Below are positions 33,968 through 49,606 of a stretch of DNA of 64,000 nucleotides, in pieces. Numbering within the stretch: position 1 is the first letter of the stretch; every line of letters starts with the position of its first letter. This stretch comes from Lacipirellulaceae bacterium (GTDB lineage: Bacteria > Planctomycetota > Planctomycetia > Pirellulales > Lacipirellulaceae). Under the pieces are notes generated by a model. It was given only the letters and a program-made list of their open reading frames with translations, searched no databases and was not told the origin of the DNA. The position numbers and the translations under genes are program-made. Where the stretch lies: positions 558,001 to 622,000 of the forward strand of contig JAVJRG010000012.1 of the NCBI GenBank assembly GCA_040218535.1, in the 5' to 3' direction.

Positions 33968-34048
33968 GCCTAATCGTTTTGCTTTTCCAGTAAGTTCTCC
34001 GCTATAATCACGCACGAACAAACTCGAGCCTCTTCAAGGAAACTCTCG

Positions 34049-35020
34049 ATGCCCTTCCAATTCCCCGGCCAATCGCGCAAACGTAGCGGCGGCTTTCCGT
34101 TTCCCTTCCCGCAGCAACGCCAACCTCAACAACGTCGCAGGCAGCGTCCAATGTTTGGCGGTGGCAGCCGAGGGCAGCGTTCTGCCGGTGGTGGCATGGG
34201 CAGCGCTATCAAGATGCGGCTGTTGATCGCGGCGGGAATAGCCGTGTTTGCTTTGATTAGCTACTACGGCAAGCCGGGTGATGTGAACGAAGTCACAGGC
34301 GAGAGCGAACGCGTGGCGATGGCCGACGAGGCGGAAGAGATTCAACTTGGCCTGCAAGCCGCCCCGAAGATGATTCAACAACATGGCGGGCCGTCGAATA
34401 GCTTGGCGGACCGACGACGTGTCCACAACATCGGGCAACGCCTGCTTGCCGCGCTCGATGAAGAGCTGGCAGGGTCTGATCGTCACAACCCTTACCGTGA
34501 TAGTTTTCACTTCACGCTGCTCGCCGACCCACAAACGGTGAACGCCTTCGCGCTGCCCGGCGGGCCGGTGTTCATTACGCACGCTCTTTACGATCGCCTG
34601 ACCGATGGCGAACTGGCTGGTGTCTTAGGTCATGAAATCGGCCACGTCCTCTTGCGACATGGCAACAAACGGATGGCCAAGCAAGGGCTCTACCAGGGCC
34701 TTGCTGGAGCGATGGGCGTTCTTGGCGGCGACGCCGGGGGGCAACGGATGGCGCAGATGATTTCTAGCGCTTTGAGCATGAAGTATGGTCGCGATCATGA
34801 GCTCGAAAGCGACAAGTGGGCCGTCAAACTCACGGCGATGGCCGGCTACGACCCACGGGCGATGATCGGCGTGATGAAAATTCTCGACGAAGCAACAGGG
34901 GGACAGGGGCCGCCCGAGTTTCTTAGCACGCATCCGAAGCCTGAGAACCGCGTGGCTTACATTGAAGAAGTGATCGCCAAGCAGTTCCCGAACGGCGTGC
35001 CTGACGGGTTGCGGCAATAG
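34049..35020 (+). CDS. M48-family zinc metalloprotease, membrane-anchored
   Basis: A 323-residue protein. The N-terminus is rich in Gln/Arg/Gly (QQRQPQQRRRQRP), then one membrane segment near residues 55-75 (MRLLIAAGIAVFALISYY). The catalytic motif is LGHEIGHVLLRHG near residue 193, and the third zinc ligand is Glu in HELESDKWAVKL. NAFALPGGPVFITHALYDRL is typical of M48 proteases related to BepA/YggG/LoiP. The protease domain probably faces the periplasm in envelope quality control. The start is MPFQFPGQ at 34049. Confidence 0.9.
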   Translation: MPFQFPGQSRKRSGGFPFPFPQQRQPQQRRRQRPMFGGGSRGQRSAGGGMGSAIKMRLLIAAGIAVFALISYYGKPGDVNEVTGESERVAMADEAEEIQLGLQAAPKMIQQHGGPSNSLADRRRVHNIGQRLLAALDEELAGSDRHNPYRDSFHFTLLADPQTVNAFALPGGPVFITHALYDRLTDGELAGVLGHEIGHVLLRHGNKRMAKQGLYQGLAGAMGVLGGDAGGQRMAQMISSALSMKYGRDHELESDKWAVKLTAMAGYDPRAMIGVMKILDEATGGQGPPEFLSTHPKPENRVAYIEEVIAKQFPNGVPDGLRQ

Positions 35021-35030
35021 CGGATTTCTT

Positions 35031-35186
35031 GTCAACGAATCACACGAATTTCACGAATTTTCGTAGCCATCTCGCTCCGCGAGATGAATTGCGGCCCCGC
35101 CGCCAACCGCCCAGGCAAGAGACCTGTCTAACAATCGCCGCTATCCTCTCGCGGAGCGAGAGGGCTACTTTGAGATTCGTTGACAA
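35031..35186. repeat. Three-layer nested inverted repeat
   Basis: The outer layer is TTGTCAACGAATC (~35030) against GATTCGTTGACAA (~35173-35185), from the 'cacgaat' word family. The middle layer is GTAGCC (35063) against GGCTAC (35168). Inside each middle arm is a hairpin, CTCGCTCCGCGAG and CTCGCGGAGCGAG. It fills the gap between the convergent M48 and BlaR1-like genes. Confidence 0.85.
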
Positions 35187-35214
35187 AAAACGTCCCGTGC
35201 AGAGTCGCGGAGTT

Positions 35215-38200
35215 TCACTCTCCGAAAATGATTTTGCGTTCTTGCTCAAGAAGTTCACGGATTTTGTAAGCATTGAGGCGTTCGCCTTCTTCCGTGGCAA
35301 GTACTGTGTAGAGAGTCTGCGTTGCTTTTTCCCTATTGTTAGTAATTTGCTGGAGGGCATAAGCTGTGGCCACGTGCGACTGCTGACTTTGCTCGGAATC
35401 AAGAAGCAGCAAGAGATAGTCGCTAGCCCCACGCGCTTTCCCTTGAAGTGCCGCCAAGTTGCGTATCGCTGAGATCTTCTGCTTCTCGTCGTCTGGTTGC
35501 TTTAACTCGTGAATCATCTGCTCATAAACCTCTTTGGCAGCGACCGCATCTTTCAAATCTCGCAACCCGGTACGAGCCACGAGTCGGACACGTTGGTTCT
35601 CGTCCCTTGTGAGCTCAACCCACTTCGGTCCACTCCCTTGTACGGAAGCAAGTAACCAGAGGAGTTGCTCGTTGGGATTCTCCTGAAACTCTCGTAACGT
35701 TTGCTCAACCAGCTTCGCGGTCGGCTCGTGTTTCATCGTTGGGTAACGTTGGAGATAATGATTGGCTGCTTCATAGTTGTGTGGGTACTCTGGATTCGAA
35801 GCAATTCGCAAAAGCTCTTCATCGAGGGCTTTTCGGTTTTCTTTTTTCAAGCGTTCCGACGCGGCAGCCACGACGACCCAACTCCAGTTTCTGGGCTCTT
35901 CTTGAAAACGCTGCTTCAGCAGTGGTAGCCAAACGCTGTCTGGCATCCGCAATAACGAACTTCTCGCTTCATAAAGTAGCTTGCCTTCGGAATTCGCCAC
36001 GTGATTGAAATCGTATTCGGCCATCACCTCCATGATCGCCTCAGCCGCTTCCGTCTGCTTCCCTGATCGCCCAAACGCCGCCAGTGCTTTGATCGCTTCG
36101 AGGCGCCGCTCGGTGCTTAGTTCGTACTTGAAGAGGTCACGCCAATGCTCGAAAGATTTGCCAGCGTAGAGATACTTGCGTGGCGATTGTCGCGGTTCGC
36201 TCTTGCCAAGCTTGGCTTTTAGCAACTCGATTTCCTTCTCTTTGGCTTCGATTTGCACGCGAAGTTTTCGTTCCTCTTTTGCTGGCTCACCCTTGAGGTC
36301 ACCTCGCTTGATGGCAGCTTGTAACGTCCGCCAAGTTTCCAGGATCACGGCGAGTTCTGTCTCGGCTTGGCGTAATGTCTTCGTGGGGGAAGACACTTGT
36401 TGTGGCTTTGAATATCCGAGCTGAATGAGCACTTCTTCCCGCTGTGCTTTTATTGCTTTGTTACGTTCCTCGGCTTCTACGCGTTGCTGTAGTTGCTTTG
36501 CGGTTTGTTTGCGTGTGGCTTCTAGCGCCTTTAGCTCCACTTCTTTGGTCGCCAGCATCGACTTGAGGTTGGCAATGGTGGCTTGGAGCTCGTTGACATC
36601 GACACTTGATTTTGCATTACGAAGCTGTTCTTGGCGTTTCTTCAAGTCGATTTGCAACTTGGCGAGGTCAGCTTTCACTTTCTTGCTCTCATTCTCCCTA
36701 CGAAGGTCGTCCAATGAGGATCGAGAGGCTGAGTCCCCAAGCTGCTGTGCTCCTTTCTCTTGCTGCGTCCCCTTCGCTTTCCGACGCTGCTGGATCGTGC
36801 GCCACGCTTCGAGGTCTGGCTCGATTCGCCCCGTGATCAGCACGTCAACCGCTTCTAATTCCGGCTCGCGGGACGCTCCAAACTCGCCACCGCCGTACTC
36901 GCCGCCGAATTCTCCCCCGTAGCCGCCGCCATACTCGCCTCCGTAGCCACCGCCACCGAACTCGCCGCCACCGCGACGCTTGCGGGCCCGCTCCTGTTGG
37001 CGTTTTTGCTCCGCTTCTGTCGGACGCATTTCTTGGCGGATGACGTAGAACTTCAGCGGGGAAAGCTCATCGAGGTCGTCGCGCTGGAAGATGGTTTCGA
37101 TGTCTGCCAGCGAAGTCGTCGGCCAGACATGGAGGCCAACAAGCAGGTCGCCTGATTGCAAAGGACGCATGCCTCTCCCCATGCTCCCGGGGAATTGTCC
37201 ATCAGTGATTTTCAACCCGCCGGCAAACTTCTTTGCCTTCACCCGCTTGAGTTCTTCGTCACTGAGCTTCTCAACTTCGATATTCAGCAGCTTGTAAACA
37301 AGGTCCGCGGCGCGTTGTTCCTCGAGGGTTGGGAATAGGGACTTTTCGTCCACGGAAGTCTGAGAAGCGTTTAAGAACTCTACCCAGGGTACTCTTGCCG
37401 AGTCATCAATCGAGATCTGAATCTTTGCGTTCGGAATCTTATGGTGATCAATGAGCTGATTGATTTCCTGCGTCGGCGTGTTTCGAGGAGCAACGATTCG
37501 AATCGTAATTTCGTCATTGCTAGAGCCAATGCTTTTGACGATTTCCTCTACAGAGTTCGTTTCCGAACCTGCGGTCTCACCCAGGGTGCTGCTCTCTTCT
37601 ACGACCGCTTCACCTTCATGACTCAGCTCCGAGGCTTCCTCCGTGGTTGAATCCTTCACTTCGACAACTTCTTCTTGCTTCGTTTCCTGGGCAATGCTTT
37701 CCGGTGCCGGTTGCCAGATCAAGAGGCTCAGCACCACCAGCACGGCGAAACCGGCAAGCGTTGCGGTGGAACGTTTGACGAGCATCGGTTCGTCCTCCAA
37801 ATTCAGGATTCTGCGAATGCGGCCAGCCAGCGGGTGACGGGCCATCGCGCTGGCGGCGAGGTTTCGTGGTAACTGGTTGCGCGCGGCAGCGAAGTTCACA
37901 AGAAGCTCCGCATACGCTTGCGGTTTCGCCGTCCGTCCGACGACCGCGGCGTCGACGCACTCTTCGCGATCGATTCGTACCTGACGGCTAATCCACCAAA
38001 CGCACGGATGAAAGAATAGCAGCGACTCAATGAGCCTTTGAGCGAGATTCACCAAGTTGTCCCAGCGGCGCACGTGCGACAGTTCATGCAGCAGGACCAT
38101 TTCTAGTTCTTCAGGAGTCCAGCCCGTGAGCGCTGACGAAGGCAAGAGAATCATGGGGCGAACGATGCCGATGAGGATCGGTTGTGCGATGCGATCACTC

Positions 38201-38883
38201 ACCGCGACGGCGACATTTCGCGAAATCGGAAGCGTCGCGGCCAAGCGATCAGCGATCTCTTTGATCTGATCACTGGCAGACTGTGTAGTCCGGCGGAGCT
38301 TTTCGGAGCCTACAATTCCGGTTGTGAGCAAAGCGAATGTCAACGGTGCGCCGACCAACCAAACCCAGGGCAAGTGAGAAGCGAGCGATGAGAGGCGCGG
38401 GGCGAGAAGTGTGGTTGTAGCGCGCGAGGCGCTGGGCGCTGGTTGTTGGTCGGTTGGGAAAGCCGGCTGGCTGTGCGTTATTGTGGGGAGGTTGCCTAGT
38501 TCGGTGTCGATACGGTCGAGGTGGGTTTCCTCAAGTGGCATTTCGGCCAAGTCGATCACGAGAGGTTCGTCGGGCTGTTCATCCTCGATTGTTAGAGGAA
38601 GCACAGCGGCTGGCGGTAATGGAGCTGATGGTTGTGGTTCGACGTTTGTAACTTCGCTCTTCGGCGGTAAATGATTCGACAAGTGCCAGGCAATTCCTAC
38701 CGGAGCAACGGCGAAGACGACAAGCGTGACAAGGGCCGTCATGTAACGCAAACCTTGCCGCTGTCGGCCTGCGAAGTAATGCATCAGCATCCCCAGCAAT
38801 GCGATCGCTGTGCCGATCCAGAGAAAATGCAACATGGTCCAGCCAGCGATATGCCATCCGTGCGTATTGAGTAACGCGTTCAT
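35215..38883 (-). CDS. BlaR1/MecR1-like M56 metallopeptidase with long C-terminal extension
   Basis: A 1222-residue membrane protein starting MNALLNTHGWHIAGWTM. The N-terminal ~350 residues are the M56 domain: several membrane helices and the zinc site LLHELSHVRRWDNL near residues 264-268. After a last helix near 380 (LAGFAVLVVLSLLIW) comes a ~840-residue exported part: an acidic segment, a PDZ-like KFAGGLKITDGQFPG region, a Gly-Tyr-Glu repeat near 650, a coiled coil (~720-830) and a HEAT-like helical C-terminus (LEAIKALAAFGRSGKQTEAA). Adjacent to a BlaI-like repressor, it probably senses an envelope signal and triggers cleavage of that repressor. There is no penicillin-binding domain, so the signal is not simply a beta-lactam. 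Confidence 0.88.
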   Translation of the reverse strand: MNALLNTHGWHIAGWTMLHFLWIGTAIALLGMLMHYFAGRQRQGLRYMTALVTLVVFAVAPVGIAWHLSNHLPPKSEVTNVEPQPSAPLPPAAVLPLTIEDEQPDEPLVIDLAEMPLEETHLDRIDTELGNLPTITHSQPAFPTDQQPAPSASRATTTLLAPRLSSLASHLPWVWLVGAPLTFALLTTGIVGSEKLRRTTQSASDQIKEIADRLAATLPISRNVAVAVSDRIAQPILIGIVRPMILLPSSALTGWTPEELEMVLLHELSHVRRWDNLVNLAQRLIESLLFFHPCVWWISRQVRIDREECVDAAVVGRTAKPQAYAELLVNFAAARNQLPRNLAASAMARHPLAGRIRRILNLEDEPMLVKRSTATLAGFAVLVVLSLLIWQPAPESIAQETKQEEVVEVKDSTTEEASELSHEGEAVVEESSTLGETAGSETNSVEEIVKSIGSSNDEITIRIVAPRNTPTQEINQLIDHHKIPNAKIQISIDDSARVPWVEFLNASQTSVDEKSLFPTLEEQRAADLVYKLLNIEVEKLSDEELKRVKAKKFAGGLKITDGQFPGSMGRGMRPLQSGDLLVGLHVWPTTSLADIETIFQRDDLDELSPLKFYVIRQEMRPTEAEQKRQQERARKRRGGGEFGGGGYGGEYGGGYGGEFGGEYGGGEFGASREPELEAVDVLITGRIEPDLEAWRTIQQRRKAKGTQQEKGAQQLGDSASRSSLDDLRRENESKKVKADLAKLQIDLKKRQEQLRNAKSSVDVNELQATIANLKSMLATKEVELKALEATRKQTAKQLQQRVEAEERNKAIKAQREEVLIQLGYSKPQQVSSPTKTLRQAETELAVILETWRTLQAAIKRGDLKGEPAKEERKLRVQIEAKEKEIELLKAKLGKSEPRQSPRKYLYAGKSFEHWRDLFKYELSTERRLEAIKALAAFGRSGKQTEAAEAIMEVMAEYDFNHVANSEGKLLYEARSSLLRMPDSVWLPLLKQRFQEEPRNWSWVVVAAASERLKKENRKALDEELLRIASNPEYPHNYEAANHYLQRYPTMKHEPTAKLVEQTLREFQENPNEQLLWLLASVQGSGPKWVELTRDENQRVRLVARTGLRDLKDAVAAKEVYEQMIHELKQPDDEKQKISAIRNLAALQGKARGASDYLLLLLDSEQSQQSHVATAYALQQITNNREKATQTLYTVLATEEGERLNAYKIRELLEQERKIIFGE

Positions 38884-38923
38884 ACGACAGAGCCTTAGGG
38901 GAAGAGGACTTTTGGTTTGGCTT

Positions 38924-39307
38924 TCACTTCTTTGTCTTTTGATCAATCAATTCGCGTAGCTCTTGGAGCTGTTTCTTCGAGAGTTGCCCGCCCTCGACCA
39001 AGTGTGCTGCCAAGCGGTCGGTCGAGCCATCGAACACGCCTTCGACCAGTTTGCGGACCATTCCGCGGGCCGTCTTCTTCTGGGTCGTGGCAGCCGACCA
39101 GGTGGCCCCGCGACCTTGGCCGGTTCGTTTGACGAGCCCCTTATCGAGCATCACGCGGAGCATGGTCGCCACGGTTGTGGTGGCGACTTCGCGCTCGCGA
39201 CGGAGTTGTTCGCAAAGATCACTTAACGAAGTCGCACCGTCGGACCAGAGCACGCGAAGGATTTCCAGCTCGCCGTCGGTTGGTTGATTGGCAGGAGGTC
39301 GAGGCAT
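38924..39307 (-). CDS. BlaI/MecI/CopY-family repressor
   Basis: A 127-residue winged-helix regulator starting MPRPPANQPTDGELEILRVL at 39307. The pattern LSDLCEQLRREREVATTTVATMLRVMLDKGLVKR is the BlaI DNA-binding domain, and the C-terminal helices (GMVRKLVEGVFDGSTDRLAA, SKKQLQELRELIDQ) are the dimerisation part that the partner protease cuts. An inverted repeat at 39375-39392 is a candidate operator. The BlaR1-like gene begins 40 bp downstream, so both are likely one autoregulated operon. Confidence 0.93.
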   Translation of the reverse strand: MPRPPANQPTDGELEILRVLWSDGATSLSDLCEQLRREREVATTTVATMLRVMLDKGLVKRTGQGRGATWSAATTQKKTARGMVRKLVEGVFDGSTDRLAAHLVEGGQLSKKQLQELRELIDQKTKK

Positions 39308-39374
39308 GGGGAGTTCGTCGGTCGAGAGTAGAAAGGAGAGAGTCGAGGCATGGATCAACGACCTGCTCGATCCG

Positions 39375-39392
39375 CTAATTCTATCGAATTAG
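39375..39392. promoter_or_regulatory. Candidate operator of the BlaI-like repressor
   Basis: CTAATTC-TATC-GAATTAG, perfect 7-bp arms around four bases, 68 bp upstream of the repressor start, followed by ACTAGT. Position suits an autoregulatory site; the sequence differs from the classical TACA/TGTA BlaI box. Confidence 0.5.
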
Positions 39393-39414
39393 AACTACTA
39401 GTCAAGCCGATAAT

Positions 39415-39531
39415 GTAGCCCTCTCGCTCCGCGAGAGGAATTGCGGTCTCTAGGAACGGCCTTCTCCTGCCGCTCCGGTATCGAGCGTGTGTTGGAGCGC
39501 TGCTTTTCCTACCGCGGAGCGGTAGGGCTAC
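39415..39531. repeat. Chimeric palindrome element
   Basis: Ends GTAGCCC (39415) and GGGCTAC (39531) pair, but the two inner hairpins carry different text: CTCTCGCTCCGCGAGAG on the left and CCTACCGCGGAGCGGTAGG on the right. The left half plus GAATTGCGG is shared with 35063-35094. Confidence 0.8.
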
Positions 39532-39536
39532 GGGGG

Positions 39537-40769
39537 TTACTCGAACAGCAGCACTGAATAATCAGCCGCTTGCGGCTTAGCCGGTACCACTTGCTCCGGC
39601 AGCAACCGCTCGCAACGAACTGCCCAGGCATCACTCGCCGTGGGCGGGGAGTCAACAAGTGAGCTCCACGCGACGGCCACTTCGACTTGCCAATGCGTTT
39701 CGGAGGAATGGGCGGCGACGAACCATTCAGGGTTCCACGTCGCGTCACCCCAGCATGCGTCGGAGGTCCAGCCGCGATGGTCGATCGTCATTTCATAGGC
39801 GGTAGCGTAATCGCGATCAACATCCAAGAGAAAACGGACCCGATCAAAATTCGAAAGATCCGTATCGCGAGATCGCGGACGCTCGTCCGGCACGAAAGCA
39901 ATGCTTGCTTTGCGTTCCACCTTCGCGGTAAAGTAAAGATATTCCGAATCGTAAGCGAAACGTAATGCCACTGCTTGCGGCTTAGCTGTCGGGCTTTCGT
40001 TTACCTTGCCGTTCCAAATCGGATCATCGAGAACACCGTCAAGATGAGGCCGCTGAGCGGAGTAGACGCAAGCGATGGTTGGGATTGGTGCTTCCGATTC
40101 GCGGTCGCCTGTCACCCACTCTTCGAAGTCGACCCGCTTGCGATAGGAATCGCCCGGCGGTCGTCGTTTCAACGGGGTGTGCAATCCGATCGCTGCTTTC
40201 TCTTTCCCCAAGAGTCGCTGAATCGTGCCGCGGTGCCAATCGAGGTCGGGCGTTTGCAGGGCCTTGTTCGCTTTGAGTTGCTGAGTCGAAAACATACCGG
40301 CATAGGTAAGCATCTGCCGATTGGCGGGCCCTTGCTCTGCAGAAGTCTTCATGGCTGACGTTAGCCGATGCGCATGGGCAACTTCGCCGCTGGAGTACGT
40401 TTGAATGAGGTCGAGAAACGCGGCCTTGGCCTCGGGCGACGAAGGGAACTTCTGCAGGAGAGTCCGTCGACATTCACCCGCCAAGTCGATCTCACCCGCG
40501 GTGTGCCATTCTCTAGCGAGCCGCTCGAACAACTTCGCTGAGTTCTTATCTGGCAGATCTCGACAGAGCTGAAGGAGCAGCGCCACCGAAGCGGCATTCG
40601 CTCCGCGCGTGCGGACCATATGGTAGGCGCGTTCGCTTTTGGCGTGGACTACTTCTTCCGGCAGGGCAGACTGTTGGTAAGTCGCCTGCTCGATACGTTC
40701 GCCCGCGTGAGACACGAGTGGGATGAGCAAGCCGAGAAATAATACGAGTCGAAACGTCATGGTTCGCAA
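39537..40769 (-). CDS. Exported protein with CBM9-like domain
   Basis: A 410-residue protein. Signal peptide: FRLVLFLGLLIPLVSHAG. Residues ~30-170 are helical with TPR-like spacing (LAREWHTAGEIDLAGECRRT). The C-terminal ~190 residues look like a carbohydrate-binding family 9-like beta-sandwich: RPHLDGVLDDPIWNGKV, VALRFAYDSEYLYFTAKVER, FDRVRFLLDVDRDYATAYEM and WQVEVAVAWSSL. Such domains often accompany outer polysaccharide-handling proteins. The peptide AKPQA occurs twice (TAKPQAVAL, PAKPQAADY), each coded by a copy of the dispersed hairpin repeat. Confidence 0.8.
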   Translation of the reverse strand: MRTMTFRLVLFLGLLIPLVSHAGERIEQATYQQSALPEEVVHAKSERAYHMVRTRGANAASVALLLQLCRDLPDKNSAKLFERLAREWHTAGEIDLAGECRRTLLQKFPSSPEAKAAFLDLIQTYSSGEVAHAHRLTSAMKTSAEQGPANRQMLTYAGMFSTQQLKANKALQTPDLDWHRGTIQRLLGKEKAAIGLHTPLKRRPPGDSYRKRVDFEEWVTGDRESEAPIPTIACVYSAQRPHLDGVLDDPIWNGKVNESPTAKPQAVALRFAYDSEYLYFTAKVERKASIAFVPDERPRSRDTDLSNFDRVRFLLDVDRDYATAYEMTIDHRGWTSDACWGDATWNPEWFVAAHSSETHWQVEVAVAWSSLVDSPPTASDAWAVRCERLLPEQVVPAKPQAADYSVLLFE

Positions 40770-40814
40770 ATTCTATCGCTGCAACCTCTGGCAACCTAGA
40801 GGAATCGAAATGCC

Positions 40815-40882
40815 CTAGCCCGCGAGCTACGCCTCGCGCGGAAATCTCAAAGTCTCCGTGCGAGGCGTAGCTCGCGGGCTAG
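40815..40882. repeat. Perfect 23-bp inverted repeat in a divergent promoter region
   Basis: CTAGCCCGCGAGCTACGCCT (first 20 of 23 bp, 40815-40837) has its exact reverse complement at 40860-40882, with a 22-base loop. Each arm folds on itself (GCGAG-ctac-GCCTCGC). It lies between divergent CBM9-like and HDOD genes. Confidence 0.9.
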
Positions 40883-41011
40883 AGGACATGCGATTGGTGA
40901 TGCGATTGTAGGGCTTGTGCTAGCAGTAGGGCCGAGTTCTTCCCGCTGCGTGAGCTATGTTTCTATAGCCCTTCGTTTCCTGATTCGACGTCCCCTGATT
41001 CGATACTCTCT

Positions 41012-41035
41012 CCGGCGGTGCGTAGCACCGCGGCT
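41012..41035. repeat. Hairpin repeat upstream of the HDOD gene
   Basis: CCGGCGGTGCGTAGCACCGC then GGCT; stem GGTGC/GCACC. It is the counterpart of 2049-2074 with a covarying stem (CT/AG replaced by TG/CA). It ends 12 bp before the HDOD start codon. Confidence 0.7.
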
Positions 41036-41047
41036 GTATCCAACGAC

Positions 41048-42664
41048 ATGTCTGCTGCCACTGCTACGAAACAAACGAATCCCCAGCTTGCAGCGCTTGT
41101 CCAGCGAAGTTCTGCGCTTTACACGCTTCCGGCAGTCGCCTCGGAAGTCTTGCGACTGACTGAAAGCCCTAAGGTGGATGCCCAGGCGCTCAAGGAGTGC
41201 ATCGAGCGCGATCCGGCTCTCACAGCCAAAGTGCTGCGGGTAGTCAACAGCTCGATGTTTGGTCTGTCGAGGGGCGTGAGCGATCTCAACCAAGCGGTTG
41301 CACTTTTGGGCGTGAAGCCGCTGAAACTGCTCGTACTGGGCTTCTCACTGCCAGAGAACTTATTCGCCAATGTTGCTGCGGAGGAGCTGCAATGGTATTG
41401 GCGGACGACTTTAGCACGTGCGGTAGCTGCTCGGGAAATCAGCGAACAAGTCTTTCAGAAGAACGGTAACGATGCTTTTCTTGCCGGACTGATGCAAGGA
41501 ATTGGCATCCTCGCTTTGCTGGGTGAACTCAAAATAACTTATGCGGAGTTCATTCGACGCGTGATCGCCGAGCAAGGCGACCTGAGTGATATTGAAAGAG
41601 TAGCTCTAGGTTTCGATCATCGTGACCTGACAGCCGCACTCTTGAGCCAGTGGCGGCTTCCTCAGGAATTAGCCGAGGCAATTCGCCAACCGCGAATCGT
41701 TGCCGTACTTGCCCGCGGCACCGACGATGCTCATCGCTTGCGGCAATCGGTTCACTTGGGCGACTTGCTCGCTCAGTTGGTTTCCCAACGTCGAATCAAA
41801 GTCTTACCGGAGTTGCTCGAAGCGGCAGATGCTTACGCTGGTTTGAATCGCGACCAACTCAACGGATTCGTCGCTACGCTGCAGGAGCATGTTGAACAAC
41901 TCGCCGATGTGCTGTCTGTGGGATTGGCGGACCAAGAGAACTATTTGGAGATCGTGGCTGAAGCTCATGAACGACTCGGCAGGGTTGCTGAAGAGTCCTC
42001 GAAGGAACATGGCCCATTCAACGCTTGCGACGAACTAGGTAAGGCGGAGCTCGCCAGCAAAACCGCGTTGCTGCAGTCCGCGGTAGCCACGGCGACCGAG
42101 AGCGTTGCTAACGAAAATGACTCCGAACAATCTGAGGAGCAAGCGTCCGCCGAGCGTAGAAAGCAAACTGCGAATCCCCCATGTGCTGATCATCCGGAGG
42201 TGACCGGGCGACGGTTTGAGGACAGACTCACGCTTGCCGTCGGACAATGTCGCGCAGCACGCCAACCCTTAAGTGTTATTCACATCGCGGTAGAGGCCTC
42301 ACCGAGTCTGACGGCCAAGACAAAGAGCGTTCTCGACCAAGTCTTTGATGCGGTCTGTGAGCAGATCGATCACGAGGGTCGTGATTTTGGAGCGGTACAG
42401 CCGGCAACCCGTGCGGTTGTCCTGCCAGATTGCGATCGTCGTGAAGCCATCCAGCTCGCTCACGAAGCGAACAATCGACTTCGCACCGTACTCCAACGCT
42501 TGGCCTCTTCCGGAAAACTTCCGCCTTGTACCGTGAGCGCTGGCGTCGCAACGGTTGCTCTCGTGCCAAAGAACTTTCCCCCAACGGCGTTGCTAGAAAC
42601 GGCTCAACGCTGCCAAGCTGCCGCCCAAACGGCGGGGACGGTCAAGAGTTTGGAGATTTGCTGA
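41048..42664 (+). CDS. HDOD-domain protein with degenerate GGDEF-like domain
   Basis: A 538-residue protein from ATG 41048. Residues ~15-210 form an HDOD domain: LPAVASEVLRLTESPKVDAQ, IERDPALTAKVLRVVNSSMF, VSDLNQAVALLGVKPLKLLV. HDOD proteins lack HD phosphodiesterase residues and act in signalling. A charged linker follows, then a C-terminal nucleotide-cyclase-like fold (FEDRLTLAVGQCRAARQPLS ... VSAGVATVALVPKNFPPTAL) in which the GGDEF signature is replaced (AVQPATRAVVLPD), so it probably does not make c-di-GMP. The upstream in-frame codons run through a hairpin repeat and are excluded. Confidence 0.85.
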   Translation: MSAATATKQTNPQLAALVQRSSALYTLPAVASEVLRLTESPKVDAQALKECIERDPALTAKVLRVVNSSMFGLSRGVSDLNQAVALLGVKPLKLLVLGFSLPENLFANVAAEELQWYWRTTLARAVAAREISEQVFQKNGNDAFLAGLMQGIGILALLGELKITYAEFIRRVIAEQGDLSDIERVALGFDHRDLTAALLSQWRLPQELAEAIRQPRIVAVLARGTDDAHRLRQSVHLGDLLAQLVSQRRIKVLPELLEAADAYAGLNRDQLNGFVATLQEHVEQLADVLSVGLADQENYLEIVAEAHERLGRVAEESSKEHGPFNACDELGKAELASKTALLQSAVATATESVANENDSEQSEEQASAERRKQTANPPCADHPEVTGRRFEDRLTLAVGQCRAARQPLSVIHIAVEASPSLTAKTKSVLDQVFDAVCEQIDHEGRDFGAVQPATRAVVLPDCDRREAIQLAHEANNRLRTVLQRLASSGKLPPCTVSAGVATVALVPKNFPPTALLETAQRCQAAAQTAGTVKSLEIC

Positions 42665-42670
42665 TTAGGG

Positions 42671-43876
42671 CTATTGGCTCTTGGCTGATAGCTCATGGCC
42701 AAGCAACTCATCACAGAGTCTCACTGCTGCTTCGAGCTGGTTCGATTCGAGTTCTTCTGCCAAGCGCGTCAGCCCGGTTGATTGTCGCTGGGTGAAAGGA
42801 ATAGGCTCGTTCGCTTCTGGCGCGAACGGAATCAGGCGCTCGATGATTTCTTCGATGAGCTCCGGAATTCCTTCGCCGGTCAGTGCGGAGACTAGTAGCT
42901 CGGGCCTCCAGGCCTGAGTCGATTCGCCGAGCTTGTCACACTTATTGAGTACCACTAAAGGTGAACCAGCAAGAGGTTGCCCCACAAGCTGATTGACTTC
43001 GCTAGCAACAGTCTGCTCGAATTCACTGTCTCCTACCGACATCGCACTGTCCACTTCTTCAACCCACAGCACCAAGTCAGCAGCGGCAATCGTTTCGCGA
43101 GCCAGCGCGATCCCTGCCGCCTCGAGCGGCTCGCCGGTTTCTCTCAATCCGGCCACGTCGAACAGGGCGACAGGCCAACCTTCCAACGCAGTAACTGAAG
43201 AAACCACGTCGCGGGTTGTGCCGGGCTGGTCATAAACGATTGCCCGTTGGTATCCCACCAATGCATTGATAAGGCTACTCTTGCCGACGTTAGGTCGCCC
43301 GGCAATCACAACACGCCAGGGCTTGGTGAGGTGCAAGCCGAACGGGATGCGTGCGATGAGGTGGTTGACGCGTTCGAGGGCTTCAGATCCCTCGCCGGAA
43401 TCGATCAATTGTTGGATTCGTTGGATCTCGTTTCTTAAGGCTCCCCCGTGCTGCTGAAGCAGCACGGCCGAAGTTTTTAGGGTGGTTGCTTCGACGAGGG
43501 CGATTTTGGCTTCGGCGGTGATTTTGTCGGGGGTTTGTCTTTCGAGCCATTGCTGCCAGGGAATAGTTTCGCAATCCGCTTCTGCGAAGTGACCGATGAT
43601 GCGTTCGACTGCTGCGGGGCCGCCGTGGCAATGGACTTCGATCTCTGCCTGTGAGGTTCGACAGACGATCGCTTCTTCGCGGTGATTGTTGGCGTCTCGC
43701 CAGTGGCCAAAGACGATTCGGTTAATTTCCTGTTCGCGGATTCGTCGACCATTGGCCGCCGCGAAGCGGGCGTCAATCGCTACCATTGCCTGCTCGCCAC
43801 AAGCAATCACCACGGCTACGGCGCCGCGCCCTGGCGGCGTCAGGACGCTTGCCAAGTTCTCTAGGCTCTCGCTCAA
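42671..43876 (-). CDS. MnmE/TrmE-like GTPase, short form
   Basis: A 401-residue protein. The N-terminal VLTPPGRGAVAVV and AEIEVHCHGGPAAVERI match the formyl-tetrahydrofolate-binding domain of MnmE; the G domain has GRPNVGKSS (~193-201), PGTTRDVV, DVAGLRE and NKCD. The final FCIGK motif with the catalytic cysteine of true MnmE is absent: the protein ends LCDELLGHELSAKSQ. It may be a paralogue with another role rather than the tRNA wobble-uridine enzyme. The likely start is TTG at 43876, overlapping the coaX stop as TTGA; no ATG in frame lies near the conserved N-terminus. Confidence 0.75.
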   Translation of the reverse strand: MSESLENLASVLTPPGRGAVAVVIACGEQAMVAIDARFAAANGRRIREQEINRIVFGHWRDANNHREEAIVCRTSQAEIEVHCHGGPAAVERIIGHFAEADCETIPWQQWLERQTPDKITAEAKIALVEATTLKTSAVLLQQHGGALRNEIQRIQQLIDSGEGSEALERVNHLIARIPFGLHLTKPWRVVIAGRPNVGKSSLINALVGYQRAIVYDQPGTTRDVVSSVTALEGWPVALFDVAGLRETGEPLEAAGIALARETIAAADLVLWVEEVDSAMSVGDSEFEQTVASEVNQLVGQPLAGSPLVVLNKCDKLGESTQAWRPELLVSALTGEGIPELIEEIIERLIPFAPEANEPIPFTQRQSTGLTRLAEELESNQLEAAVRLCDELLGHELSAKSQ

Positions 43877-44733
43877 GATTCGCTCGCTTTGTTGATCGCC
43901 GCCCAAATCCCAGAGAGCGTTAGCGCCGGCTCTAGTCGAAGATCGAAGCCGTCGAGTTCGAGGTATTCTCTCAAGTGGCGAGAGTCGCCACCGGTGAGAT
44001 AGACCTTGCTCGCATGGCCGCAACCTTCGTCTTGCAACCATTCGCCGGCCTTCAAAACAAGCTCTTTGATGGCACCAACCGCCCCCCAAAAGAGCCCGGC
44101 AGAAATCGCGGCGCTGGTATTCCTACCAACCGAGGGCGGTGCCGAACCGTCAATCTCCAGCGACACTTCAGGAAGCGATGCGGTCCCGGCATGGAGGGAC
44201 TGGCTCGCTAGTCGAATGCCCGGAAGAATCGCCCCGCCGCGGAAGTTTCCCTCGGCATCGACCGCATCCACTTTGATGGCAGTGCCCACATCAACGACGA
44301 TCGCCGATTCGTGCGCTGGCCGCAGGCGATTAACCGCGACGGCATTCAAGAGTCGATCGATGCCGACCTTCTCCGGAAATTCAACGTCAATCGCCAAGGG
44401 AAGATCGTCGAACGTCAAAGCCTGTAAAGGTCCAACGCCTGCACGTTTCAAGCCAAGCTGCAGATCCCCAAGCGTTGGCGGATGGACCGAACCAACCGCA
44501 CATGCAAGTTCCTCGCACTCACTCTGATCGATGCCAAATTTCTCGAAGGTCGTGCGAACTTCGCTCAGCCAAACTTTGACCGGGCGGTCGCGATGAGGCA
44601 CCGCGATGAACTCCTCAGGCTGTGCCAGGGGCGGCGCGGCTATCGGTAACAGTGTCTGGGGCTTGTCCGTGCAGCCCGTAGCGTTGCGAAACAAACCGAG
44701 CTTGATGCGCGAGCTGCCGACATCGATGGCCAA
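43873..44733 (-). CDS. coaX: Type III pantothenate kinase
   Basis: A 286-residue ASKHA-fold kinase catalysing the first step of coenzyme A synthesis. MAIDVGSSRIKLGLF is the phosphate-binding motif, FPEKVGIDRLLNAVAV carries the pantothenate-binding GxDR, and IVVDVGTAIKVDAVDAEG with GGAILPGIRLASQSL are the later conserved loops. The usual GTATTxD reads GTAIKVD here. It is followed by the MnmE-like GTPase with overlapping stop/start. The 60 bp upstream are a 'tcagtgttcagttctcagtg' repeat. Confidence 0.85.
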   Translation of the reverse strand: MAIDVGSSRIKLGLFRNATGCTDKPQTLLPIAAPPLAQPEEFIAVPHRDRPVKVWLSEVRTTFEKFGIDQSECEELACAVGSVHPPTLGDLQLGLKRAGVGPLQALTFDDLPLAIDVEFPEKVGIDRLLNAVAVNRLRPAHESAIVVDVGTAIKVDAVDAEGNFRGGAILPGIRLASQSLHAGTASLPEVSLEIDGSAPPSVGRNTSAAISAGLFWGAVGAIKELVLKAGEWLQDEGCGHASKVYLTGGDSRHLREYLELDGFDLRLEPALTLSGIWAAINKASES

Positions 44734-44797
44734 AAGAGTGTTCAGTGTTCAGTTCTCAGTGTTCAGTTCGACAGGTCGTTAGCTCTTCCGCCAAAAT

Positions 44798-45793
44798 TCA
44801 ATCCGGTGACTCAGCGAGAACGGCGTAGGTTCGATTCATCAGCTCATTGAGCCCTTCGCCTGTCACGGCTGAGAATTTCAGCACTTCCTTGCTGATTGCT
44901 TGAGCCAGCTTGGCCTGAACTTCCTCTGCCTCGGGGAGTTCACACTTGCTGACAGCAACGATCTCTGGGCGGCTGGCCAGATCGACATCGTAGCTTTCGA
45001 CCTCTTTGCGAATCGCCTGATAGTTCTCTATAGGGTCGGTACCATCCACAGGAGCCGGTTCCACTAGGTGAACCAACACACGTGTTCGCTCAACGTGACG
45101 GAGGAACTCATGGCCCAGCCCTGCCCCCTCGGCGGCACCTTCGATCAGGCCGGGAATGTCCGCCATGACCAAGGTGCGATCCATGTCGATCTGCACGATA
45201 CCGAGGTTGGGAATCTTGGTCGTAAACGGGTAGTCGGCGATCTCTGGCCGGGCCCTGGAAACGCGGCTGAGCAGCGTGCTTTTACCGGCGTTGGGCTTGC
45301 CTAGCAATCCGACGTCGGCAATCACCTTCAGCTCGAAGGTTAGCCGACGCGATTCTCCCTCGCCGCCACGCGTGAACTCGCGTGGTGCTTGATTGGTGGA
45401 CGACTTGAACCGGGTATTCCCCTTGCCCCCTTTGCCACCGCGTGCAGCAACAACTTGCTCTTCGTCGGCGGCCAAATCCTTGAGAACGAAGTCGCCTTTC
45501 TCATCAATGACAACCGTGCCGGGAGGCACGCGGATGATCAGGTCGTCAGCATTCGCACCGTGACGATTCGAGCCCTGCCCAGGTGTGCCGCTCTTGGCAC
45601 GCCAATGCTTGCGATGGATGAGCTCAGAAAGACTGTCGACCCCGGCTTGCGCAACAACGATCACACTCCCACCGTTGCCTCCATCACCTCCGTCAGGGCC
45701 GCCACGAGGGACGAACTTCTCACGACGAAAGCTCAGGCAGCCATCACCCCCACGGCCCGCTTCGACATCGACAGTGACTCGGTCTATGAACAT
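44798..45793 (-). CDS. obg: Ribosome-associated GTPase Obg/CgtA
   Basis: A 331-residue protein needed for large-subunit assembly and stress control. The Obg fold with glycine-rich loops is intact (FIDRVTVDVEAGRGGDGCLS, GGPDGGDGGNGGSVIVVA), and the G domain has GKPNAGKSTLL, DIPGLIEGAAEGAGLG and SKCELPEAE in the NKxD position. The C-terminal OCT domain of many Obg proteins is missing; the chain ends soon after the G domain, which is common outside Firmicutes. It lies downstream of rpmA, the usual partner. Confidence 0.95.
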   Translation of the reverse strand: MFIDRVTVDVEAGRGGDGCLSFRREKFVPRGGPDGGDGGNGGSVIVVAQAGVDSLSELIHRKHWRAKSGTPGQGSNRHGANADDLIIRVPPGTVVIDEKGDFVLKDLAADEEQVVAARGGKGGKGNTRFKSSTNQAPREFTRGGEGESRRLTFELKVIADVGLLGKPNAGKSTLLSRVSRARPEIADYPFTTKIPNLGIVQIDMDRTLVMADIPGLIEGAAEGAGLGHEFLRHVERTRVLVHLVEPAPVDGTDPIENYQAIRKEVESYDVDLASRPEIVAVSKCELPEAEEVQAKLAQAISKEVLKFSAVTGEGLNELMNRTYAVLAESPD

Positions 45794-45796
45794 TCG

Positions 45797-45893
45797 AGAG
45801 GCGAGGGGTTAGGGGCGAGGGGCGAGAACTTGAAGACGCTTCGGAAGCGAAGTACTCGCCTCTCGTCTCTGGCCTCTCATCCCTCAAAGAAAA
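45797..45893. repeat. Inverted 'cccctcgcc' phrase repeat between rpmA and obg
   Basis: The left part reads 'gaggcgaggggttaggggcgaggggcgag' and the right part 'ctcgcctctcgtctctggcctctcatccctc', the same words in reverse complement. Relatives lie at 4064-4092 and 17990-18019. Confidence 0.7.
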
Positions 45894-45923
45894 AGGGATG
45901 CCACCGCACGCGGCGCATCCCTT
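45885..45923 (-). terminator. Intrinsic terminator after rpmA
   Basis: On the minus strand AAGGGATGC, a ~13-base loop, GCATCCCTT and then TTTCTTTGAG. It lies ~43 bp beyond the rpmA stop, so obg may need its own promoter in the following ~90 bp. Confidence 0.8.
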
Positions 45924-45948
45924 GGATTACGTATGGTTGAGCTGGAAC

Positions 45949-45968
45949 GGCTAAGCCGCAAGCGGCTA
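45949..45968. repeat. Hairpin repeat supplying the rpmA stop codon
   Basis: GGCTAAGCCGCAAGCGGCTA. Read on the minus strand its first three bases are TAG, the rpmA stop. The same arrangement occurs at rpmJ (61006-61028). Confidence 0.8.
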
Positions 45969-46241
45969 CGATTTAACGACCACGCCTGCGACTTGGTCTG
46001 CGGCAAGGACGCTAATGCGGCGGCCCTTGCGGTCGAACTTTACGTGGCCTTCAACCAGGGCGAACAGGGTGTAGTCGTTACCTTGCCCGACACCCTTACC
46101 AGGATGCACCTTGTTACCGAGCTGGCGAATGAGAATGTTGCCGGGCATGACATGCTCGCCACCAAACTTCTTTACGCCACGGCGTTGTGCGTTGGAATCG
46201 CGACCGTTACGGCTCGAGCCTTGTCCCTTTTTATGTGCCAT
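45966..46241 (-). CDS. rpmA: Ribosomal protein bL27
   Basis: A 91-residue large-subunit protein whose N-terminus reaches the peptidyl transferase centre. [24 protein letters not shown] is the standard start, with [20 protein letters not shown] and [12 protein letters not shown]. The stop codon TAG lies in a dispersed hairpin repeat. No rplU (bL21) gene is found upstream, although rplU-rpmA-obg is the common order; the upstream 248 bp appear non-coding. Confidence 0.97.
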
Positions 46242-46489
46242 CTGAATTCACCTCGCAGTTAAAACTGCTGTCTTGTCTCTTAGTTTGGAAACTTACTGCC
46301 CGTGAGGGAAAATTCTTTCGAGCCCCAAATTTTAGCAGGGTTGGCGGGGGTGGGCAAGTGCTGGAAAACAAGCGTTTCGGGCTACCAGATTAGCTGCACA
46401 AGACTACTTATCGCTTAGTACTATAATAGTAATGACAGTATTAGCTAGACCATGTCATTTACCGACACCTTCTCGACGGAAACGATGCG

Positions 46490-46717
46490 ATGCACCCAGC
46501 ACTAGGCCAACTCACCCAGCTACCTGTCGCTGAGCGTCTTGAGATCGTTCACGAACTGTGGGATAGCATTGCAGAATCGAAAGAGCAACTTTCAGCAGAA
46601 CAATGGCACCGTGAAATCGCTACCGCCAGACTTGCGGAGCTGGAAGGACGGGAAGAGGAAGAGGGACTTACTCGTGAGCAAGTTTGGGAACAGGTAGATC
46701 AACGACGTGGCTCATAG
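46490..46717 (+). CDS. Antitoxin, addiction-module (TIGR02574-like) family
   Basis: A 75-residue protein: LPVAERLEIVHELWDSIAES, EQWHREIATARLAELEGREE, REQVWEQVDQRRGS. This 'LsvaeRleivxxLWdSI' start and the Trp-containing end match the small antitoxins paired with RelE/ParE toxins in planctomycetes and cyanobacteria. The toxin gene begins inside its last 11 bases. Start ATG 46490 fits the family length; no strong Shine-Dalgarno sequence is seen. Confidence 0.85.
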   Translation: MHPALGQLTQLPVAERLEIVHELWDSIAESKEQLSAEQWHREIATARLAELEGREEEEGLTREQVWEQVDQRRGS

Positions 46718-47012
46718 GCTGATCTTTCATCGCGAGATCCCCGCTGATCTCTCAAATGCACTCGACTACTACGAGCCCATTTCGCTTGAGCTCGCCAACA
46801 ACTTTCGCCGTTCGGTCGATCGAACTCTAAATCATTTATCGAGTAGCCCAGAGATCTATCCACTGGATGTCGTCCCGATCCGCTTCGCAAAAGTCCAGCG
46901 ATTTCCTTACCTCATCTTCTTTGCTGCCAGAAAGGATATTGTCCTTGTGTTGGCAGTACTACATGGATCAACCGATCCTTCGAAGTGGCGTTCGCGGTTG
47001 GAGGGCCAATGA
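46707..47012 (+). CDS. RelE/ParE-family toxin
   Basis: A 101-residue protein starting at GTG 46707. HREIPADLSNALDYYEPISL and LANNFRRSVDRTLNHLSSSP are the two N-terminal helices, and IRFAKVQRFPYLIFFAARKD and IVLVLAVLHGSTDPSKW the C-terminal strands with the catalytic or contact residues of this superfamily. It overlaps its antitoxin by 11 bases. Its stop overlaps the next gene as ATGA, an unusual three-gene chain. Confidence 0.85.
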   Translation: MAHRLIFHREIPADLSNALDYYEPISLELANNFRRSVDRTLNHLSSSPEIYPLDVVPIRFAKVQRFPYLIFFAARKDIVLVLAVLHGSTDPSKWRSRLEGQ

Positions 47013-47260
47013 TCCACCGCCCGCTGGAAGACTGGGAATACCCCGACCCCGACGAAGAGGACGATCTCGACGAGGACGCCACCGCCACGCGGCCTTGCCC
47101 GACTTGTGGCACTGAGGTCTATGAAGACTCGCAACGCTGTGCGGTGTGTGGCGAGTACGTGACGTTTCCCAACCCTGCCCTGGAAGGTTGGCCTTGGTGG
47201 GCTGCAGCGCTGGGGCTGGTGGGGATCGTCGCCGTGATTCTGGCGATGGCTGGGGGATGA
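47009..47260 (+). CDS. Zinc-ribbon membrane protein
   Basis: An 83-residue protein, MIHRPLEDWEYPDPDEEDD, with an acidic N-terminus, a zinc ribbon CPTCGTEVYEDSQRCAVCGE (four cysteines) and a single C-terminal helix WWAAALGLVGIVAVILAMA. Start at 47009 because it overlaps the toxin stop as ATGA. Similar small proteins are frequent in planctomycetes; function unknown. The tight link to the toxin-antitoxin pair may be accidental. Confidence 0.75.
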   Translation: MIHRPLEDWEYPDPDEEDDLDEDATATRPCPTCGTEVYEDSQRCAVCGEYVTFPNPALEGWPWWAAALGLVGIVAVILAMAGG

Positions 47261-47337
47261 GCCGTGAGCCGCGAAGCGTTGGCTCGCAGGTAGACGCGTG
47301 TAGGAGTGCAACCTGACGGCTCTTGGACGGCAGAAAG

Positions 47338-48321
47338 TTACCGATAAATCCAGCGGTAGTTGACGCCTTCGTTGGCACCGTCGTAAAGATTGGCTTTGCC
47401 GGGGGGCGTGCCGAAGCGGATTTCGCCTTCGTCTTCCTCGTACTCATCGCCGGGTCGCCAGAAGTTCAACTGCAGCAGCTTGTGCGTAAACTCGCGACCG
47501 GTGGCGGGCGCGTCGCCCGCTTTGAAGGCGCCCTCGGGATCGTCCCAACGGTATGCGTTCGAGAGTCCCCGAACGTAGACGCTGAAGTAATCGGTGGTCG
47601 GGTCAACATCTTCCCACATGGCAACTCCCCACAAACCGCGGGCGTCGCGGCCCTCCTCGATGGGAAGCTTCTGCTGTGCCATCTGGGCGCTAGTGAGCAG
47701 TCGACCGGTCGAAAACTCGCGGCGTCGGATTGGCTCCAACGCAGCGGGAATCACGCGATCAAGGTACGCCTTGCGAATACGCTGGCCGGTCGCCTGATCA
47801 CGATCTTGCGTGCTGAGGATAAAGCTCGGCAGGAAACGAACGTCTTCGGTGCCTTGGCTTTCTGTGACGAACTCGCCATCCTCTTGCACTTTGGGGATCA
47901 GACCGGCACCCGTGTTGCGGACGCGGTAAACCATGTACCAAATCAGTTTTCGTTCGACGCCGCCTTCGCGGGTCGGCACATCCACGGCAAGCATCCGTAG
48001 TGGCTTGAAGGTAAGCTCCAGGCACCAAACGTCGTGGACGAAGGGCACGTCGGCAGCCATTTCGTAGAGCGTCCGGCTCACAGCCGTCGAAGCCGGATCC
48101 CACTGCAACGATTCGTCTGCTCGAAGGGACAACAGATCATGGATGGAAACGGCGTCCGCGCGTTCGACCTTCGGCGGAATGGTCGTCAGGATGCCTGGTG
48201 CAAACTTGGGGACGCTGCCAAAGGAATCGTCCTGAGCGAACGAGTGATCGCCGAACGCAGCAACGAGTGCGACGATCGCCCAGAACTTGAGCGAGAGAGA
48301 CTGAATACGATGGCGGTCCAT
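47338..48321 (-). CDS. Conserved exported protein of unknown function
   Basis: A 327-residue protein with signal peptide (LSLKFWAIVALVAAFGDHSFA). The mature part contains VWCLELTFKPLRMLAVDVPT, RKLIWYMVYRVRNTGAG, RFLPSFILSTQDRDQATGQR, GLWGVAMWEDVDPTTDYFSV and RGLSNAYRWDDPEGAFKAGD, a set of aromatic-rich segments I recall from planctomycete hypothetical proteins. No catalytic motif or anchor is recognised. The start MDRHRIQSL at 48321 gives a normal signal peptide. Confidence 0.75.
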   Translation of the reverse strand: MDRHRIQSLSLKFWAIVALVAAFGDHSFAQDDSFGSVPKFAPGILTTIPPKVERADAVSIHDLLSLRADESLQWDPASTAVSRTLYEMAADVPFVHDVWCLELTFKPLRMLAVDVPTREGGVERKLIWYMVYRVRNTGAGLIPKVQEDGEFVTESQGTEDVRFLPSFILSTQDRDQATGQRIRKAYLDRVIPAALEPIRRREFSTGRLLTSAQMAQQKLPIEEGRDARGLWGVAMWEDVDPTTDYFSVYVRGLSNAYRWDDPEGAFKAGDAPATGREFTHKLLQLNFWRPGDEYEEDEGEIRFGTPPGKANLYDGANEGVNYRWIYR

Positions 48322-48566
48322 GAACTGCTTCCAATAGTGAGCGGACGAGGCAAATAGCCCTGCTCTAGCAGTATAAATGGGCCGTCGGAGAGGGGCAAAC
48401 TTTTCCGCTCAGGGAAGTGGCCTCGGCGAGGGTCTCAGTCGCAGAGCAGTTTCAACCGTCACAATCGGAACGCAAAATCGCCTGCAACTCGGCTCGCTGG
48501 GGCATACAGGCGAAGCCGAGTCGCAAGCGGTGGGGGCGGTTCGGTCGGCGTTTCCTTGCTCAGCCG

Positions 48567-49385
48567 CTAGGTCGTCTTGTCGATGTCTACGTCCTGGGAA
48601 TTGCTCTCGGGGCGCGGACGCCCACGACGGCCCTCGCGACGAGGACCTCGCTCGCCGTCTCGTGGCGGGCCGCGGAATTCACCCCGATCCTCTCCCCGAG
48701 GTGGTCCAGGGAAGTCCCCGCGATCTCCGAACCGGGGACCACGCGGAGGGCCACGGAACTCGTCACGCCCCCCTTGGGCTTGCCCACGCATCTGCTGCAT
48801 CTGTTGCATCCGCTCGGCGAGGCGGCCGAACTCTTCGCGGCTGAGCATGCCATCGCCATCCTCATCGAAGTGGTCGAAGGCTCGCATCGGATCGGGCCCT
48901 CCGCGACGATTTCCGTCACCACGGCGACCTCCGGCAGGTCCCGCTTGCTCGCCACCGCGACGTCGTGGGCCATCAGCGCGATCGCGATCTTCTGGTGGAG
49001 GTCCGCGGCGTTCGCCAGGTCGTTGGGGACGAACTCCTCGTTCGATGCGGTCGCCCGGATTGAAGTTACCGCGACCTTTTCCTCCGCCACGCATTCTCTC
49101 CTGCATTCTTTCCCGCATCGCTTCGCGTGCCTTGGAACGCTCTTCGCCGGTCAGCTCGCCATCGCCATCCTCGTCGAATTCTTCGAGCATACGGGCTCGT
49201 ATTTCTTTCCTGTCTGGACGATCCGCTTGATCGGGACGAGCCCGACGCTTCGGCTTTTCGTTGTCGACTTCCGAGGCCGCAGGTGAGTCGTCATTGTCTT
49301 CGCCTGCAACCACGTCATTTGCCGCTACACCGATTAAGAGGAGCCATGCGACGGCGGATAAGCTGAGGTAGGTAAGTTGTTTCAT
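48567..49385 (-). CDS. Secreted EF-hand protein, Arg/Gly-rich
   Basis: A 272-residue exported protein; signal peptide YLSLSAVAWLLLIGVAANDV. Two EF-hand loops are clear: DEDGDGELTGEE near residue 71 and DEDGDGMLSREE near 173, each with the calcium-ligand pattern DxDxDG..xxE. Around them are long low-complexity Arg/Gly/Pro/Asp tracts (GPPRGPRFGDRGDFPGPPRG). Such EF-hand proteins are numerous in planctomycetes and presumably bind calcium outside the cytoplasm. The strongly biased composition creates long open frames on the opposite strand that I do not accept. Confidence 0.85.
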   Translation of the reverse strand: MKQLTYLSLSAVAWLLLIGVAANDVVAGEDNDDSPAASEVDNEKPKRRARPDQADRPDRKEIRARMLEEFDEDGDGELTGEERSKAREAMRERMQERMRGGGKGRGNFNPGDRIERGVRPQRPGERRGPPPEDRDRADGPRRRGGEQAGPAGGRRGDGNRRGGPDPMRAFDHFDEDGDGMLSREEFGRLAERMQQMQQMRGQAQGGRDEFRGPPRGPRFGDRGDFPGPPRGEDRGEFRGPPRDGERGPRREGRRGRPRPESNSQDVDIDKTT

Positions 49386-49606
49386 GGTTTTCTCACTTCA
49401 TTTACTTCGAGGTAGAAAAGGCCTCAAAGAGAGGCCCGTGGGTTGCTGCCTGGTTAATCTAACTCCGGTTGGGAACTGGAGTTTCGCTTAAATTGCCCAT
49501 TTTTTGATCGTTCTCTGGTCCGCTGGTCAGGCTATATTGCCAGTCATACAAAAGAACTCTCGGCGAGATTCATGAAACATTTCGACACTCCTCAATAGCT
49601 TTCATC

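Follow-up and report, generated by a model that had tools for sequence, protein, structure and literature searches.

REP elements with a GTAG foot, BIMEs and REP dimers have been surveyed in bacteria, and the survey covers Planctomycetes and names R. baltica (Di Nocera 2013, PMC3733652). The GTAG foot, a stem of 6–13 bp, head-head dimers, dimers of unlike stems, several families per genome and complementary stem changes within families, as described in the parts of that survey considered here, all recur among the host elements reported below. The two differ in the foot: five host families (A, C, H, E and F; the letters A to P are labels of the present analysis) are without GTAG, whereas the degeneration described in those parts of the survey affects the second and third positions and not the first. 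Coevolution of RAYTs and REPs has been studied in proteobacteria (Nunvar 2010, PMC2817692). As in the host, the gene lies between inverted REPs, the palindromic REPs change with the RAYT and their abundance tracks its presence; one clade of the host RAYTs, however, is almost invisible to Pfam.

For group 3 TnpA-REP proteins acting on REPs with perfect stems, loop bases were found to be decisive (Corneloup 2021, PMC8266576). The host elements resemble those REPs in their perfect stem, their foot and the loop positions that matter, but the loops are others. A classification of TnpA-Y1 proteins (2018, PMC6006769) includes class 3 of Planctomycetes with a CnGA foot and subclass 2.4 with double-foot REPs, which it explains by central deletion of a dimer. 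The double-foot unit at 26073-26107 is like the REPs of subclass 2.4, and by our own reading NH(V/F)H and WT in the host proteins L005 and L007 recall class 3. The THxH and YLPxH motifs of the RAYT clade of families A, C and H fit none of the 11 rows in Table 1 of that paper, all of which have N or D before HxH, and judged by these motifs the TAGCC-footed clade seems to belong to none of the published subclasses. Several families per genome, unlike-stem dimers, compensated stem changes and RAYT-REP coevolution have been published before (PMC3733652, PMC2817692). The TAGCC-footed clade and the member of it that lacks the Tyr seem to exceed what the parts of these two papers considered here contain; our searches of open-licence PMC papers yielded no record of a TAGCC-footed or Tyr-less RAYT.

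Hairpin elements in the window and their families

The window, that is the whole stretch of 64,000 nucleotides that was analysed, represents G000:C12:558001-622000 of a host assembly of 5.36 Mb in 13 contigs (95.8% complete). The initial annotation had listed seven elements with TAGSS-type ends and self-complementary interiors. All seven were found at the coordinates given in the first seven lines below, fold as had been described and rank among the 25 longest inverted repeats of the window (span up to 150 nt). According to the ORF list of the window they sit between larger ORFs. At least four further such elements, absent from the initial annotation, occur in the window (last four lines).

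18303-18390, unstranded: family G, head-head pair of GTAGGGTCCGCNNTGCGGACC; present at the same site in G001
19531-19599, unstranded: family F, head-head pair with TTAG foot
26073-26107, unstranded: family M, single double-foot hairpin with GTAGGG as one foot and CCCTAC as the other
35063-35168, unstranded: family B, head-head pair with GTAGCC foot, CGCTCCGCG core and two unlike stems
39415-39531, unstranded: family B, head-head pair with two unlike stems; a family G pair stands at the same site in G001
40815-40882, unstranded: family H, head-head pair of CTAGCCCGCGAGCTACGCCTCGC hairpins, each able to pair with the other as well (units G000:C12:598816 and 598860)
52429-52463, unstranded: double-foot hairpin TTAGCC/GGCTAA
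1360-1402, unstranded: family P, two CCACGCTCCGCGTGG hairpins with GTAAC feet facing
2004-2074, unstranded: family C, head-head pair with two unlike stems
42896-42918, plus strand: family D, single hairpin
52389-52413, minus strand: H-like single hairpin with a T run behind it on the same strand

The seven elements listed initially resolve into five repeated hairpin families, the sole remainder being 52429-52463, for which no family was found. It had been claimed that their text differs from copy to copy. This did not hold, since 35063-35168 and 39415-39531 belong to one family (B) and four of the other five have kin elsewhere in the genome. The elements starting at 18303, 19531, 35063, 39415, 40815 and 2004 are inverted pairs at short spacing. 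Counted by sequence and not by hairpin, the family M core TAGGGTATGCC has seven matches in 1.26 Mb, two of which are the element at 26073-26107 itself, and the CCACGCTCCGCGTGG core of 1360-1402 also flanks the RAYT gene L010. An Rfam scan of the window gave nothing at gathering score.

The family B pair at 35063-35168 is enclosed by inverted TTGTCAACGAATC repeats (35025-35190). A similar inverted ACGAAT repeat is found at 55098-55173, there without a TAG hairpin pair.

Enrichment and clustering of TAG hairpins

We counted TAG[GC] sites that have a hairpin no more than 2 nt after them whose stem reaches 7 or more, and calculated rates per TAG[GC]-type site with other trinucleotides as controls. 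For C12:1-1,262,000, window included, we obtained 10.8 per mille for TAG compared to 3.5–6.7 per mille for 13 other trinucleotides. TAG ranked first of all 64 trinucleotides in C5:1-800,000 (12.6 per mille; median 4.55, sd 1.44), a region unused in defining the families except for the L009 locus, which had been seen beforehand. It was again first of 64 in 360 kb of G001, a genome of the same genus (13.7 per mille; median 5.07). A cruder count of 8-base inverted arms, uncorrected for composition, gave no clear signal, TAG being second with 10.1 per mille to CGA with 10.5.

Among the 116 TAG hairpins of C12:1-1,262,000, 69 fell into clusters of at least two and 47 were singletons; the clustering is crude, as the largest cluster merges families A and H and another includes a stray. 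Nine clusters had at least three members, compared to only 0 to 4 such clusters for each of 11 control trinucleotides, the largest control clusters being those of GTA (15 members, overlapping GTAG), CAG (11) and TTC (9). By a loose criterion, 45 of the 85 TAG hairpins in C5 have an 8-mer in common with a C12 cluster of at least two and 18 with a C12 singleton, leaving 22 with neither.

RAYT genes and their flanking hairpins

Profiles PF01797 and NF047646 mark 12 places in the host genome, one of them with an internal stop. Inverted copies of the respective family stand on both sides of six host Y1/RAYT genes: B at L009, C at L008, E at L003, I and J at L088, P at L010 and A at L248. The scanned 2.06 Mb contain seven Y1 genes, and within 700 nt of them we counted 15 TAG hairpins (0, 0, 0, 1, 6, 3 and 5 per gene) against 1.2 expected, and none of 20,000 random placements reached as many; three of the seven genes are without a nearby TAG hairpin. 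Other inverted repeats accompany the host Y1 genes L001/L004, L002, L007 and L011, and those of L001, L002, L007 and L011 are long and non-TAG. The cognate RAYT lies between inverted copies for families B, C and P in the host, for H in G001 and for G in both G001 and G006. For families D, F and M no RAYT was found; a RAYT of G002 with TTTAGCCGC hairpins (L159) is a lead for family F only.

Both profiles failed to list the A- and H-type RAYT genes, which were reached via the H locus of G001. The H pattern led to this locus, where five H hairpins surround a gene of 166 aa and a second gene that is frameshifted. With the 166-aa protein as query two more host genes were found, an H-type gene (75% identical) and L248, which has A hairpins on both sides. 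No H hairpin is present in the 3.48 kb examined around the host H-type gene.

We regard it as very probable that the elements are REP-type hairpins, mostly in head-head pairs of BIME/REPIN layout, and that they form several families in this planctomycete genome, each processed now or formerly by its own RAYT (TnpA-REP). The hairpin would fold on single-stranded DNA, and the RAYT would read a short foot together with the loop, the foot being GTAG in B, D, G, I and M and TAGCC with a variable first base in A, C and H. It would then cut beside the foot and move or copy the pair; cutting, movement and the bases contacted by the protein are what we infer here. The stem is proposed to drift in compensated changes because it would be a mere duplex spacer, and duplicated, diverging RAYTs would give rise to many families of one architecture and different text. 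The REP/BIME-like character that the initial annotation had suggested, with RAYT genes in the same genome, was borne out, and the ends are enriched in the 2.06 Mb scanned. Its picture of one family with unusual freedom of sequence was not: there are several families with constant cores of their own, and what stands is the narrower case of paired stem change around one RAYT clade. The apparent freedom is a mixture of families and compensated stem drift, both known in print. Several REP families with divergent RAYTs in one genome represent a natural series separating foot, loop and stem, so that a small set of constructs would do to test the rule that foot and loop are read while the stem may vary freely.

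Paired changes in the stem

One RAYT clade is accompanied by hairpins in which foot and loop are constant and the substitutions in the stem come in pairs. Hairpins beside RAYTs 43–50% identical to L009 keep the GTAG foot and a C-TCC-G centre and have their stem replaced pairwise; family P of L010 keeps the core with the foot GTAA. We analyzed 29 distinct B-type units, a set that takes in imperfect variants from G015, G011, G002 and the host and leaves out the host unit C5:733160, which has an altered core of other length. In this set 94.4% of cells are paired and six of the eight stem pairs show changes on both sides, again with constant foot and loop. Changes on both sides affect 31 cells compared to 7.8 after shuffling, and the covariation score is 0.437 compared to 0.140 in shuffled and at most 0.089 in slid alignments. 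When considering the three free pairs of the B pattern, 29 of 31 host copies are fully Watson-Crick; in G015 this applies to 27 of 48 copies, with 16 needing G-T and five showing a mismatch. Many of these B copies are near-identical and therefore do not represent independent events.

Feet and copy numbers of the families

GTAG is present in the window units of families B, D, G and M. The first foot base is G in 6/6 units of D, 6/6 of G and 7/7 matches of M, while B was searched with GTAG built into the pattern. Families A, C, H, E and F are without the GTAG foot, and we class them as working like REPs rather than as GTAG REPs. The base before TAG is near constant in most families, being C in family A (16/19) and family H (15/19) and T in family F (8/8) and family E (5/6); in family C it is mixed.

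The whole host genome contains 31 dispersed copies of B, nine of G and 36 of H, the latter counted by one exact pattern. Across 19 genomes the copy numbers of these three families roughly follow the cognate RAYT. Family B has 31 copies in the host, 48 in G015, two in G011 and none in the other 16 genomes, and B-type RAYTs at E<=1e-10 occur only in the host, G015, G011 and G007. G007 has a B-type RAYT, yet no copy fitting the B pattern, and no such hairpin adjoins L182, the other B-type RAYT of G015. Family G reaches 52 copies in G001, 29 in G006, nine in the host, seven in G004 and one in G005, with none in 14 genomes; the RAYTs of G001 and G006 carry G hairpins alongside. Despite its nine G copies the host, in an assembly that is 95.8% complete, has no G-type RAYT at E<=1e-20. 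A G-type RAYT homologue with zero G copies is found in G012, G014, G015 and G018, and in G012, G014 and G018 another stem stands beside it. Family H has 36 copies in the host, 29 in G001, 16 in G003, one in G010 and none in the other 15 genomes, H-type or nearest RAYTs being present in the host, G001 and G003.

Occupancy of syntenic sites in G001

We compared 19 syntenic sites, comprising 22 hairpins, between the host and G001. A TAG hairpin is present in G001 at six sites and absent at 13, a split in which gain and loss are indistinguishable, and four of the 19 are unlike any family. With 13 of 19 sites lacking a TAG hairpin in G001, site occupancy has therefore changed since the two species split. 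At 18303 both species carry family G, and in G001 the spacer encloses another palindrome. At 39415 family B in the host corresponds to family G in G001, the two lying 7 and 6 nt, respectively, past a common TCAAGC. At C12:725357 family C is present in both species with a paired stem change. The sequences to the left and right of the H-RAYT locus can be aligned between the species, and the hairpins and second gene of G001 have no counterpart there in the host.

The A/C/H RAYT clade and its H-type member

The clade sample consisted of 15 members from named genomes, of which 14 are labelled Planctomycetota or below and one Acidobacteria. HxH is present in all 15 and the Tyr in 14; the motifs are mainly THxH, with the Tyr within YLPxH, and the foot is TAGCC. 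Near these genes TAG hairpins reach 150 per mille of TAG[GC] sites compared to a median of 12 over 64 trinucleotides, followed in rank by ATA (119 per mille), which overlaps ATAG. At least one TAG hairpin is present at 12 of the 15 loci, that of L257 being unlike the rest. The strict hairpin scan found none at L258 and L263, and the H hairpins of L253 escape the same scan. Leaving out the unlike hairpin of L257, the first foot base near the 14 other clade RAYTs is A in 17, C in seven and G in two of 26. The clade goes with TAGCC feet mostly without the canonical leading G; this seems less usual, as does the H-type RAYT, which is without its predicted catalytic Tyr and yet looks conserved by selection.

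Two H-type genes belong here:

L235:1501-2016 (C5:1122169), host: H-type RAYT without predicted catalytic Tyr, HVQ in place of HUH
L229:1794-2294, G001: H-type RAYT without predicted catalytic Tyr

The Tyr column is occupied by T in G001 and by K in the host, and the HUH motif reads HVH and HVQ, respectively. Four residues downstream of this column the host protein has a Tyr, which could substitute for the catalytic one; G001 has a His at this position. In the frameshifted neighbour gene of G001 two motifs, HIH and MYLPRH, lie in different frames. Pfam gave no Y1 match for the H-type protein, and a PDB sequence search returned chance-level carboxypeptidase rows only. For a model of the G001 protein (pLDDT 82.2), the first Foldseek match was 4er8, the structure of a RAYT in complex with a REP hairpin (E 8.5e-5, TM about 0.5), and Y1 transposases fill the first 30 rows, which points to a Y1 HUH fold. 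In VIA-align, transposases scored Z 11.1–13.4, little above Thg1 proteins at 10.6. Because the predicted Tyr is lost, and HUH is altered in the host, the H-type protein is, judged by sequence, a RAYT relative and not an active RAYT. Comparison of the host and G001 genes over 161 codons gave pN 0.161 and pS 0.767, with dS saturated and a single species pair, and the gene looks conserved by selection despite the lost predicted Tyr.

We tentatively suggest, as a possibility that we hold to be less than even, that the H-type RAYT of this genus has been retired as a transposase and retained as a protein that reads structure. It would bind H hairpins whose spread would have been the work of a sister gene with the Tyr; in G001 this sister now carries a frameshift, and in the host it is absent from the corresponding site. 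If true, the Tyr-less clade member would be a transposase retained after catalysis was lost.

More generally, the elements might be relics kept for a host role, immobile pairs persisting as bound sites or as structural elements of mRNA or DNA. The H-type RAYT, without predicted Tyr in both species and with one HUH His lost in the host, yet with low pN relative to pS, is in line with this, as are the G copies that persist in the host without a detectable G-type RAYT. However, these observations concern H and perhaps G only, and the changed occupancy at the 13 sites speaks against immobility, so that we consider a collection of relics rather unlikely. Mobile or formerly mobile REP families with their own RAYTs remain the preferred explanation.

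Family E and IS200-like elements

L003 exceeds the cut-off of the IS200 transposase model (72.4 bits against 55), so that family E may stand nearer to a derivative of IS200. Its pairs, roughly 205 bp long and with common inner blocks, are located at G000 C12:463067, C12:1201798, C5:519352 and C5:765742 and match the IS200-type L003. The elements as a whole could accordingly be read as termini or deletion derivatives of IS200-like elements, that is MITEs, and not as REPs. The inner blocks of family E, common to 4/4 aligned pairs, and their position flanking an IS200-type gene would fit, but family E is absent from the window. B dimers, in contrast, keep spacer length and edges and not the middle (10 aligned), and the genes of B, C, A, I and H either resemble RAYTs or score weakly with the IS200 model. 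For the elements of the window we therefore consider such an origin improbable and retain the assignment to REP families.

Terminators and other repeats

That the elements are unrelated intrinsic or bidirectional terminators, alike merely as GC-rich intergenic hairpins, is very improbable: they do occupy gaps between larger ORFs, but terminators would neither form families flanking RAYT genes nor share a TAG foot, and a scan of 34000-53500 (18303, 19531, 26073, 2004 and 1360 lie outside) called none on an element, two of its 30 calls falling in the spacer of 39415-39531. The initial annotation had named unrelated terminators as the finding that would overturn its reading, and between 34000 and 53500 this did not materialize. 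The hairpin at 52389-52413, with a T run past it on the minus strand as judged by eye, may act as a terminator; at this site G001 has a hairpin without a TAG foot.

Apart from the TAG hairpins, inverted repeats of a distinct type, built of CACGGAT units, are located at 25356-25541 and 51561-51621. The minus-strand ORF 15939-17192 holds diverged direct repeats (16204-16966), several of them at a spacing of 156–159 nt, and probably encodes a repeat-domain protein.
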